Assembly: GCA_014380365.1 (NCBI GenBank)
Contig: JACMJZ010000004.1
Coordinates: 62,001 to 126,000 of the forward strand
From: Pyrinomonadaceae bacterium
GTDB taxonomy: Bacteria; Acidobacteriota; Blastocatellia; Pyrinomonadales; Pyrinomonadaceae
DNA: 64,000 nt
Direction of reading: 5' to 3'
In this document: positions 28,394 through 32,773 of the stretch, piece by piece
Layout of the letters: the number at the start of each line of letters is the position of its first letter
Numbering within the stretch: the first letter of the stretch is position 1
Position numbers and translations under genes: made by a program
Notes under the pieces: generated by a model
Told to the model about the DNA's origin: nothing
The model's database searches: none
The model's input: only the letters and a program-made list of their open reading frames with translations

Positions 28394-31300
28394 TCAGTCG
28401 ACTGAAAAATACTTCGCTTCCGGATGATGAGCGATGATCGCAGAAGTGGATTGCTCGGGTTCGAGTTGAAACTCCTCAGTCAGTTCCACGCCAATGCGCG
28501 ATGGGTCGAGCAACTCAAACAGCTTGGCCTGGTCCTCAAGACTTGGACACGCCGGATAGCCAAAGCTAAAACGGGATCCCTGATATTGCTGTCGGAATAA
28601 CTTCCTCACGTCCTCGGCATCGTCCTGAGCGATGCCCAACTCTTCGCGAATGCGTTTATGCCAAAGCTCCGCCAGCGCCTCAGCGCTTTCCACGCTTAGA
28701 CCATGAAAGTAAAGATAGTCAGCGTAGTTGTCCGACTTGAATAAGTGCTGCGAGTACTCGCTCGCGCGGCTTCCCATGGTAACCAGATGAAAAGCAACAG
28801 TATCCATTTTTCCTGACTCTTTCGACGCAAAGAAATCGGCGAGGCAGAGATTCTTGCCCATATTCAGCGGCTGGCGCGGAAACGTGAAGCGCATTCGCTC
28901 CGTCGCCTGATCCTCGTTGTAAATGATCAAGTCATTGCCAGATGACTGCGCCGGAAAGTAGCCATAAACAACGCGCGGTTGCAGTAATTTCTCGAGCTTG
29001 GTGAGTTCTTTCAACTCCTCATAGATTGGCCGGACTTTGTCTCGAACCAAAGTTTCATATTCATCCGCCGGCCGGCGTCCCTGTTTGAATTGCCACTGGC
29101 CCTTGAACAAAGCAGTCTCGTTAACGAACGCGAACACCTCGTCAAGCGATATATCTTCAACAACTCGCGACCCGTAAAACGGCGCGGGGGGGATGGCAAC
29201 GTCGGAACGCACAGATGAACGGAGTGTGTGCGTGGTATCGCCTGAGACCTTTGCAGCGCCGCGTGGCCTCACATTCTTGCTGATGCCGAGTTTCGCTTCT
29301 TCGCCGACGCGGTCCTCGACATCCTCAGGAGCTTCGCCATTATCGCCTGATGCGGCAGCGGCCTTTGCCAGGTCGTTCGTGATCACGTTTGCGCCGCTTA
29401 CCAATTGATCCATCGTGTGCAAGCCCGCGAACGCGTCGCCGGCATAAAAGAGTGTTCCTTTATAGATGGAGTTCAAATCTTCGTCGACGTAACGGCGTGT
29501 CAGAGCCGCGCCCCCTAGAATCACCGGAACGGTAATGCCGCGTTCGTTCATGAGCTCGAGGTTGTCTTTCATGATTAAGGTCGACTTAACCAGCAACCCG
29601 CTCATGCCGATCGCGTCGGCGTCGTGTTCCTCGTGCGCCAGCAAAATGTTGTCAATCGTCTGTTTGATACCGAGGTTAATAACCTTGTAACCATTGTTCG
29701 TGAGAATGATGTCGACCAGGTTCTTGCCAATGTCGTGGACGTCGCCCTTGACGGTCGCAAGCACCAACGTCCCTTTCGCGGTTGCGCCTCCCTTCTTCTC
29801 CATGAATGGCTCCAGGAAACGCACCGCCGCTTTCATCGCTTCCGCCGACTGCAACACAAACGGCAGCTGCATCTGCCCGCTGCCAAAGAGATCGCCGACC
29901 ACTTTCATTCCGTCGAGCAGAATATTGTTGATGATGTCCAGCGCAGCGTGCGTCTCGAGTGCGGTCTTTAGTTCGTCCTCCAGGCCAATCTTTTCGCCGT
30001 CGATGATGTGATTCTTCAACCGCTCTTCAACTGTCGCACCCTTGGATTCCTTCTTGGACGCCTTTGCTTTGACGTTCTCAAACAAAGTGGTGAACTTAGT
30101 CAGCGGATCGTAAGTACAGACGTCACCCTCAAACTCGCGCCGGTCGTAGATCAAGTCGCGCGCAACTTTGAGTTCCTGTTCGCCGATGCGATTGAGCGGT
30201 TCAATCTTACTGGCGTTGACGATTGCGGCATCGAGCCCGGCCTCGACAGCGTCATGCAGGAACACTGAGTTGAGCACGACTCGCGACGCCGGGTTCAGAC
30301 CGAAGGAGATGTTTGAGACGCCAAGAATCGTGAAGCAGCCCGGCAGCTCCTTTTTGATCCGGCGAATCCCTTCGATGGTCTCAAGCGCGTTGCGGCGATC
30401 CTCTTCGATACCCGTGGATATCGGCAGCGCGAGCGGATCAAAGAAGATGTCGCTAGCCGGCAAACCCAGTTCGCCAGTCGCCTGATCGTAAGCGCGTTTA
30501 GCGATTGCAAACTTTCCATCCGCTGTGCGGGCCATTCCCTCTTCATCGATGGTGCCGATGACCACGCTGGCGCCGTAGCGCTGCGCGAGATCGATGACCT
30601 TCGCAAACCGCGGCGGTCCGTCTTCGTAGTTAGTCGAATTGAGAATGCTCTTGCCGCCGGCGTGCTGCAGTCCGGCTTCCATCTTTTCCCACTCAGTGGA
30701 GTCAAACATCAGCGGCAGCTTGATGTTCGTTACCAGTCGCGAAGCCAGCTCGTGCATGTCAGCTTCGCCGTTGCGGCCCACAAAGTCGACGTTAACGTCC
30801 AGAATGTGAGCGCCCTCGCGTTCCTGCTCTTTCGCTAGTGCAACCAAACCATCCCAGTTTTCCGCGTTGAGCAGGTCGCGCATCTTCTTTGAGCCGCTGG
30901 CGTTCACTCGTTCGCCCACGATCAAAAACGATGCGTCTTGCACATAAGGTTGTTGGAAGTAAATGGACGACGCGGCGGGCAGGAGTTTGACGTCGCGCGC
31001 TTTCGGCGTAATGCGCTGCATCGCTTCAACGACGAGTTTCAAGTGCGCCGGCGTTGTACCGCAGCAGCCGCCGACTATGTTGACGCCGAAGTCGCTGGCG
31101 AAGTGGACGACCTGAGCAGTGAAACTTTCCGGCGTCTCGTCGTAATGCATCTGGCCGTCAACGACTGAAGGCAAGCCGGCGTTGGGCAGAACTGACACGG
31201 GCAACGGAGCATTCTCGCAAAGGTAGCGAATGCTTTCGGTCATGTGACGCGGGCCAGTGCCGCAGTTCATGCCGATGACGTCAACTGGAAATGGTGCGAG

Positions 31301-31933
31301 CGCGGTCAGGGCTGCGCCTATCTCCGTCCCATTGAGCATTGTCCCAAAGAGTTCGATCGTTACCTGGGCAATAACCGGGACGCGCACGCGATGCTGTTTG
31401 AAGTGTTCAAAAATCGCAGAGAGAGCGGCCTTTGTTTGCAGCAGGTCCTGGCATGTCTCGACGATCAACAGATCGACGCCGCCATCAAGCAACCCACGCA
31501 CCTGCTCAGCGTAGGCGGCTTTGAGATTCGCGAAGGTGATGTGGCCCAACGTAGGGAGTTTGCGCCCCGGCCCCATCGAGCCGGCGACCCAGCGTGGTTT
31601 GCTTATGGTTGAGTAGTCGGCGGCAACGCGCTTAGCGAGACGCGCAGCGAGCAGATTCATCTCATGCGCCTTGTCGCCGATGTCGTATTCTGCGAAGTCG
31701 ATTGGCGTTCCGTTAAACGAATTGGTTTCGATGACGTCGCAGCCTATTTCGAGAAAGGCTGAGTGGACGTTCTCAACTGCGTCGGGACGAGTGACAAGCA
31801 GGTTTTCGTTGCAACCTTCAAATCGCAGGCCGCCGAAATCCTCGAGCGTGAGGTTCTGGACCTGCAGGTTAGTGCCCATCGCGCCGTCAAAGACGACGAT
31901 GCGCTCCTTCAATGTGTCGAGAAAGTTAGCCAT
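28394..31933 (-). CDS. metH: Cobalamin-dependent methionine synthase
   Basis: A 1179-residue, four-module enzyme that methylates homocysteine using methyl-tetrahydrofolate through cobalamin. Module 1 (~1-320) has zinc cysteines in GMNCGTGP and GGCCGTTPAH. Module 2 (~330-610) is the pterin-binding domain (GERVNASGSKK). Module 3 has the B12 motif DVHDIG near 731, with GNAA-type helices before it. Module 4 (~880-1179) is the SAM-binding reactivation domain ending in GYPACPSLEDQ. Length and motifs are complete. A promoter, a SAM-II-like aptamer and a terminator lie upstream, consistent with shut-off by S-adenosylmethionine. Confidence 0.97.
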   Translation of the reverse strand: MANFLDTLKERIVVFDGAMGTNLQVQNLTLEDFGGLRFEGCNENLLVTRPDAVENVHSAFLEIGCDVIETNSFNGTPIDFAEYDIGDKAHEMNLLAARLAKRVAADYSTISKPRWVAGSMGPGRKLPTLGHITFANLKAAYAEQVRGLLDGGVDLLIVETCQDLLQTKAALSAIFEHFKQHRVRVPVIAQVTIELFGTMLNGTEIGAALTALAPFPVDVIGMNCGTGPRHMTESIRYLCENAPLPVSVLPNAGLPSVVDGQMHYDETPESFTAQVVHFASDFGVNIVGGCCGTTPAHLKLVVEAMQRITPKARDVKLLPAASSIYFQQPYVQDASFLIVGERVNASGSKKMRDLLNAENWDGLVALAKEQEREGAHILDVNVDFVGRNGEADMHELASRLVTNIKLPLMFDSTEWEKMEAGLQHAGGKSILNSTNYEDGPPRFAKVIDLAQRYGASVVIGTIDEEGMARTADGKFAIAKRAYDQATGELGLPASDIFFDPLALPISTGIEEDRRNALETIEGIRRIKKELPGCFTILGVSNISFGLNPASRVVLNSVFLHDAVEAGLDAAIVNASKIEPLNRIGEQELKVARDLIYDRREFEGDVCTYDPLTKFTTLFENVKAKASKKESKGATVEERLKNHIIDGEKIGLEDELKTALETHAALDIINNILLDGMKVVGDLFGSGQMQLPFVLQSAEAMKAAVRFLEPFMEKKGGATAKGTLVLATVKGDVHDIGKNLVDIILTNNGYKVINLGIKQTIDNILLAHEEHDADAIGMSGLLVKSTLIMKDNLELMNERGITVPVILGGAALTRRYVDEDLNSIYKGTLFYAGDAFAGLHTMDQLVSGANVITNDLAKAAAASGDNGEAPEDVEDRVGEEAKLGISKNVRPRGAAKVSGDTTHTLRSSVRSDVAIPPAPFYGSRVVEDISLDEVFAFVNETALFKGQWQFKQGRRPADEYETLVRDKVRPIYEELKELTKLEKLLQPRVVYGYFPAQSSGNDLIIYNEDQATERMRFTFPRQPLNMGKNLCLADFFASKESGKMDTVAFHLVTMGSRASEYSQHLFKSDNYADYLYFHGLSVESAEALAELWHKRIREELGIAQDDAEDVRKLFRQQYQGSRFSFGYPACPSLEDQAKLFELLDPSRIGVELTEEFQLEPEQSTSAIIAHHPEAKYFSVD

Positions 31934-31951: not shown

Positions 31952-32009
31952 GTAGGACAGACATTCTTCTCTGTCCTGTCATCAACTGACAGGCAATGCC
32001 TGTCCTGCA
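31952..32009. repeat. GGACAGACATTCTTCTCTGT double hairpin, copy 2
   Basis: It has the same paired small palindromes as 23036-23105: GGACAGACATTCTTCTCTGT, then ACAGGCAATGCCTGTCC. It lies between the metH start and its leader terminator and so may be in the metH 5' untranslated region. Confidence 0.85.
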
Positions 32010-32013
32010 AAAC

Positions 32014-32045
32014 GAAAGCCCCGCGCTGAACAACGCGGGGCTTTC
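32014..32045 (-). terminator. Intrinsic terminator in the metH leader
   Basis: A perfect 12-base-pair stem (GAAAGCCCCGCG with its complement) and an eight-base loop, followed on the minus strand by CGTTTTGC, close the metH leader about 40 bases past the aptamer. A short competing hairpin (GGCTTT, TAG, AAAGCC) overlaps the 5' side of the stem and could act as antiterminator. The stem is symmetrical and could also end transcripts entering from the other side. Confidence 0.75.
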
Positions 32046-32084
32046 TAAAAGCCTGTTCGATTAGTCTAAGAAAGACTCGCCGTG

Positions 32085-32138
32085 CTGTTTAGCGGATTAT
32101 TTTACGTGGCCGCAAGTCGCCTTAACTCACCACGTCTG
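32085..32138 (-). promoter_or_regulatory. SAM-II-like riboswitch upstream of metH
   Basis: Read on the minus strand, the core is ACGTGGTGAGTTAAGG, then CGACTTGCGGCCACGT, then AAAATAATCCGCTAAAC. ACGTGG and CCACGT form stem P1. The conserved GGTGA, CTTGC-GCCAC and GCTAAA blocks match the SAM-II (metA motif) consensus in order and spacing, and GUUA with UAAU can form the pseudoknot stem. SAM-II binds S-adenosylmethionine and represses methionine genes, which suits metH. A promoter precedes it and a terminator follows, so control by attenuation is likely. Recognised by eye, not by a covariance search. Confidence 0.75.
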
Positions 32139-32147
32139 TTCCGAGTT

Positions 32148-32176
32148 ATTGAAACATCGCGATTGGGCACTGTCAA
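32148..32176 (-). promoter_or_regulatory. Sigma-70-type promoter for metH
   Basis: On the minus strand, TTGACA (32171-32176) is a perfect -35 box. It is followed after 17 bases by TTCAAT (32148-32153), four of six matches to the -10 consensus. The expected transcript start falls a few bases before the SAM-II-like aptamer, which supports both calls. Confidence 0.65.
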
Positions 32177-32278: not shown

Positions 32279-32773
32279 ATGCGACGCGCCATCTACCCCG
32301 GTTCATTCGATCCAGTTACCAACGGTCACCTGGACATCATCGAGCGAGGCTGCAAACTCTTCGACGAAATCATCATCGCCATTCTGGTGAACCCCGACAA
32401 ACAGCCCTTCTTCTCGATAGACGAACGACGGGAAATGCTGGGCGCAGTTCTCAAGACTATCGAGCGGGGAACCTGTGTTATTCAGGTCGATCATTTTCAG
32501 GGCCTGTTGGTTCACTATGCCCTGGCGCAAAAAGCCGACGCGATCGTGCGTGGAATTCGTGCTATTTCGGACTACGAATACGAATTGCAGATGGCGTTAA
32601 TGAATCGCCGGCTGGAGCCAAGCATCGAAACCGTTTTCATGATGCCAGCGGAGACTTACTCTTATGTGAGCTCGCGGCTGGTGAAGGAAGTGTTTCAGTT
32701 AGGCGGCGAACTGAAAGGCCTGGTTCCTCCTCTCGTCGAGGCGCGGATGAGAGATAAACTTGCAAGCGACTAG
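32279..32773 (+). CDS. coaD: Pantetheine-phosphate adenylyltransferase
   Basis: A 164-residue cytoplasmic enzyme that adenylates 4'-phosphopantetheine, the fourth step of coenzyme A synthesis. YPGSFDPVTNGHLDII at the N-terminus holds the nucleotidyltransferase TxGH-type motif, and YSYVSSRLVKEVF is the family's ISSTxVRE-type substrate-binding signature. Length is normal for the family. ATG start. It is divergent from metH and shares the ~345-base intergenic region with it. The segment just before the start (TTTACCATTTCCCG) looks like part of a repeat family also seen near ctaB. Confidence 0.95.
   Translation: MRRAIYPGSFDPVTNGHLDIIERGCKLFDEIIIAILVNPDKQPFFSIDERREMLGAVLKTIERGTCVIQVDHFQGLLVHYALAQKADAIVRGIRAISDYEYELQMALMNRRLEPSIETVFMMPAETYSYVSSRLVKEVFQLGGELKGLVPPLVEARMRDKLASD

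Follow-up and report, generated by a model that had tools for sequence, protein, structure and literature searches.

Organization of the metH leader

The minus strand of the window, by which we mean the whole 64-kb stretch of DNA analyzed here, carries metH, encoding a cobalamin-dependent methionine synthase of 1179 aa (28394-31933, with the ATG at 31933), which matches TIGR02082 with 1413.8 bits at a cut-off of 1010.85. The upstream open reading frame on the plus strand (32279-32773), which is putatively coaD-like, is transcribed away from metH. Inspection of the sequence located a promoter, the blocks of an aptamer and a terminator, all on the minus strand and at the positions where the initial annotation had placed them.

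The promoter consists of a -35 hexamer TTGACA (32171-32176, minus strand) and, after a spacer of 17 nt, the hexamer TTCAAT (32153-32148), with a TG one base ahead. The TTGACA-N17-TTCAAT element proposed upstream of the aptamer is therefore present, and it takes the form of an extended -10, TGtTTCAAT (32148-32156, minus strand). A strict consensus scan rejects the -10 box of the window, which has no A at position 2. Among 84 relatives, TTGAC was found in 71 (60-nt upstream stretch plus 10 nt) and a spacer of 17 nt in 50; TTCAAT is the most frequent -10 among the matches (10/84).

The intrinsic terminator spans 32009-32045 on the minus strand and comprises a hairpin followed by a GUUUU tail. Its arms, GAAAGCCCCGCG (32045-32034) and CGCGGGGCTTTC (32025-32014), form the G+C-rich 12-bp hairpin named in the initial annotation, which ends at 32014. 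Two more loop-closing pairs extend the fold to 14 bp (-27.3 kcal/mol, z -6.4, with 0/200 shuffles as good). The U-tract of the tail (GUUUUGCA) is weak, and the window terminator does not pass the strict consensus scan. Terminator-like hairpins better than -10 kcal/mol were found in 81/84 matches, and in many relatives both the -10 box and the terminator tail are better formed than in the window copy. Because the upstream reading frame is divergent, the hairpin is assigned as an attenuator of metH, and a role as terminator of the upstream gene was ruled out. Between terminator and metH (31954-32006), the window also contains the short palindromes GACAGGCA/TGCCTGTC and AGGACAGA/TCTGTCCT; several relatives show similar palindromes or simple repeats in this gap.

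Aptamer identity, fold and probable ligand

The covariance model RF00521 (SAM-II, SAM_alpha) matches the minus strand end to end at 32143-32068 with 43.4 bits, above the gathering threshold of 36 (cmscan; E 1.8e-6 for a search of the entire 64-kb window with all families). The search on which the initial annotation was to be judged thus supports a SAM-II aptamer, and the match is the sole cis-regulatory RNA that cmscan detected in the window. Our model R1 gives 79.6 bits for the same element, with the window sequence itself among the rows from which R1 was built. SAM-I or SAM-I/IV was rejected as an identity for lack of matches, and none of 60 genomes of the family has a covariance-model match to SAM-I (RF00162).

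The three conserved blocks lie on the minus strand at 32131-32127 (GGTGA), 32116-32112 (CTTGC) and 32093-32088 (GCTAAA). Helix P1 is formed by CGUGGU (32129-32134) and GCCACG (32105-32110), also on the minus strand; in an alignment of 70 aptamers, 95.7% of its cells are paired, with two-sided changes at two pairs. The pseudoknot (helices 2 and 3) joins the 5' strand GCGACUUGC (32112-32120, minus strand), each of whose two GC ends pairs with a GC within 32084-32093, to the 3' strand CGCUAAACAGCACGG (32080-32094, minus strand), which also serves as the candidate antiterminator arm. The four inner pairs of the P2 pseudoknot are formed in 70/70 aptamers, one of them with two G-U cells. Covariation is seen at the third pair of the outer pseudoknot helix (UA, GU, GC and AU, with 29 two-sided changes); in the window this pair is an unpaired G-A, leaving an outer helix of only 2 bp. 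Pairing in P1 and the pseudoknot is above both shuffles and slid controls in the 70 aligned aptamers. Judged by sequence, the leader before metH is a genuine SAM-II riboswitch and a predicted SAM sensor. The crystallized metX SAM-II (2QWY) shares the 2-bp outer pseudoknot helix and the pocket bases except U10; it regulates translation, whereas the acidobacterial leader has a terminator after the aptamer.

In the numbering of 2QWY, the positions U11, U12, U20, U21, G22, C23 and G42 to A47 are without variation among the 70 aptamers, which includes the SAM-contacting U11, U21, G22, U44 and A47. Position U10 in loop L1, described as a binding-site base of SAM-II (PMC3764141; PMC11508383) and termed completely conserved in a published survey (PMC3764141), was found to be G in 50/70 aligned aptamers, all 50 from Pyrinomonadaceae. 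It is G in 54/58 named metH leaders, and it is kept as U by the other families and by Pyrinomonas itself. Within Pyrinomonadaceae, U10 is retained in only a few metH leaders (L042, L053, L074 and L097), among them that of Pyrinomonas methylaliphatogenes. Since the window has G at this conserved position (32126, minus strand), we file the element as a SAM-II variant and not as a plain member.

One consequence of the change could be a ligand different from SAM: the aptamer might sense a SAM analogue or fail to discriminate SAM from SAH. The published conservation of U10 and its place in the binding site speak for this, as does the prevalence of G among the metH leaders. A further point comes from SAM-V, whose pseudoknot triplex and SAM pocket are nearly identical to those of SAM-II (PMC6061858): its U10 equivalent, U8, holds the uridine partner of the SAM adenine. 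The same U8, however, bonds to that uridine without contacting SAM (PMC6061858), which makes U10 a second-shell base by this analogy; SAM-V U8, SAM-II U10 and the G of the window were matched to one another in a by-eye motif alignment. Moreover, the sulfonium-contacting U11 and U21 are invariant together with U44, A47 and G22, and methionine-synthesis genes are regulated in U10 and G10 lineages alike. We therefore regard a non-SAM ligand as unlikely. With all SAM-contacting bases intact, SAM stays the likely ligand of the G10 aptamer, and U10-to-G would be a tolerated or affinity-tuning change. SAM-V itself is translational, and the window sequence is matched by the SAM-II model instead.

Antiterminator pairing and the proposed switch

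A possible antiterminator had been suggested in the initial annotation; its terminator-pairing arm is here assigned to the SAM-binding strand itself. The ligand-binding strand CGCUAAACAGC-ACGG is complementary to the 5' arm plus loop of the terminator, CCGCGUUGUUCAGCG (32024-32038, minus strand), so that 13 of the 15 positions in the duplex of 32094-32080 and its partner are paired and the other two are A-C mismatches. The full terminator is more stable than this duplex (-25.6 vs -17.8), which requires the switch to act kinetically. The second SAM-II copy of the genome has a longer and stronger antiterminator match (-27.0 vs -17.8 kcal/mol in the window). Minimum-energy folds of the growing transcript gave the same order for both copies, with the antiterminator appearing first (8-12 pairs at 114-122 nt) and then the terminator.

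Across 81 leaders, the antiterminator duplex averages -17.2 kcal/mol, compared with -11.1 for shuffled terminators. Exchanging terminators between loci yielded -14.27 (sd 0.27), and 0/5000 exchanges reached the real value; as the duplexes were picked by energy and these permutation tests ignore shared ancestry, the numbers rank the hypothesis but give no probability. When terminators were swapped between the two copies of one genome, the own pairing was better in 24/30 genomes and worse in 4/30, with a neutral outcome for the genome of the window (-44.8 vs -45.0). Base 48, the one variable base of the aptamer core, is paired in 77/81 duplexes, and its partner varies along with it: C-G (58), G-C (10), A-U (3) and wobble pairs. 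At the level of sequence, the leader thus has what defines an attenuator, a terminator between promoter and gene and a mutually exclusive antiterminator. A linker hairpin of the window (GUCU..AGAC) was excluded from the switch, having no counterpart in the relatives inspected.

These features make it highly probable that the leader is an OFF switch, a SAM-II riboswitch repressing metH by transcription attenuation. RNA polymerase would start about 7 nt past TTCAAT. At low SAM, 32094-32080 would pair with the emerging 32038-32024 ahead of the terminator 3' arm, and this antiterminator would allow read-through into metH. Once SAM is bound, the pseudoknot triplex would lock GCUAAA and the adjoining GC, leaving the partner 32038-32024 free; the terminator could then fold and halt transcription before metH. 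P1 is expected to be present in both states.

Two other modes of action were considered for the same RNA. A minority of SAM-II riboswitches, including that of metX, act on translation (PMC6061858), and the pseudoknot might accordingly hide the ribosome-binding site of metH. However, about 150 nt, including a stable hairpin, separate the pseudoknot 3' strand from the metH ATG, too great a distance for it to mask the ribosome site, and hairpins occur in nearly all relatives; we consequently discarded translational control as extremely improbable. The short U-tract could also mean that termination is constitutive or inefficient and that the RNA acts mainly in trans as a SAM-II derived small RNA, and small RNAs do arise from SAM-II leaders of S. 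meliloti (PMC9373788). Complementarity to the own terminator is, however, maintained despite sequence change, which favors switching in cis and makes a main role in trans very unlikely.

The attenuation architecture itself is not new. Promoters just ahead of P1 and terminators past P2 were described for SAM-II in 2005 (Corbino 2005, PMC1273637), and the majority of SAM-II riboswitches are transcriptional (Barrick and Breaker 2007, PMC2258182; PMC6061858). The alphaproteobacterial elements of S. meliloti metZ and metA have the same consensus, P1 and pseudoknot, with promoter, aptamer and terminator following one another in the same way. Leaders of the metZ type also have a pseudoknot 3' strand that matches the terminator 5' arm, and hence the working principle is not new either. 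This rhizobial match is clear in Shinella and in the S. medicae plasmid copy and weak in S. meliloti metZ, and in two rhizobial metA leaders it is not above shuffles. Unlike in rhizobial SAM-II, the acidobacterial partner comprises the terminator 5' arm plus loop, in a register that recruits the GCUAAA core.

Distribution and regulated genes

RF00521 matches (E up to 0.001) were found in 52/396 Acidobacteriota genomes, 28 of them Pyrinomonadaceae; with a model built from these aptamers, a SAM-II element was detected in 96/99 Pyrinomonadaceae genomes. A weak RF00521 match without the core (L162) was discarded as probable noise. Named metH relatives assign the window to Pyrinomonadaceae. The aptamer lies upstream on the coding strand in 58/65 acidobacterial metH loci, as tallied by hand, and 6 of the remaining 7 loci end close to or inside metH, which gives 58/59 testable loci. 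The GGTGA, CTTGC and GCTAAA blocks, whose conservation upstream of metH in relatives bore on the initial annotation, are kept in these 58/59. None of 15 cyanobacterial metH loci has the aptamer. Our literature search found no report of SAM-II in Acidobacteriota, and Rfam's automatic member lists may already include it. The earlier proposal that a transcriptional form in this lineage extends the range of SAM-II therefore holds for the lineage, as none of the surveys consulted names Acidobacteriota for SAM-II, but not for the transcriptional form, which is already the norm.

The second SAM-II copy in the genome precedes a gene for a bifunctional homocysteine S-methyltransferase/methylenetetrahydrofolate reductase (HMT/MTHFR), an assignment tested on the orthologue in L113 (NF006396). 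Both copies are thus located before methionine/SAM genes, as is characteristic of SAM-II. Known proteobacterial targets are metY, metA, metX, metC, hom and metW (PMC4239095); in contrast to S. meliloti SAM-II, the acidobacterial element has G at U10 and metH and HMT/MTHFR as targets. The less expected features are the Acidobacteriota lineage, the metH and HMT/MTHFR regulon and the U10-to-G change; the GCUAAA-recruiting register is a further difference from the rhizobial elements.

In other families of the class, SAM-II aptamers occur in tandem upstream of thrC (threonine synthase; L144/L169 in G051, L150/L170 in G063 and L134/L171 in G235), and each of them has a terminator of its own. TIGR00260 is above cut-off in both proteins tested (from L169 and L171); an aspartate kinase gene follows thrC in L169 and a short-chain dehydrogenase gene lies ahead of it in L171. 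Tandem SAM-II arrangements are already known (PMC9481103), and our literature search found no paper tying SAM-II to threonine synthase. Weaker SAM-II matches, some of them with the core GCUAAAGAGC, were located upstream of cystathionine gamma-synthase/O-succinylhomoserine sulfhydrylase-like genes (L156 at G086:C1:90695-90766, L158, L146, L147 and L154), with the family assignment tested for L156 only.

Tentatively, the Pyrinomonadaceae elements might form a SAM-II subclass of their own: U10, adjoining the adenine-recognizing base, would have become G in both genomic copies, with altered affinity or ligand discrimination, the ligand-binding strand would double as the antiterminator, and control would be exerted on the final methylation in methionine synthesis. 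As the SAM-binding bases would also form the antiterminator, the competition between the on and off states is open to paired compensatory mutants, and the G10 aptamers offer a naturally occurring test case for a supposedly invariant base beside the pocket. In Pyrinomonadaceae, a family without SAM-I matches in 60 genomes, SAM-II appears as a nearly universal regulator whose targets have shifted to methionine synthase and the HMT/MTHFR enzyme.
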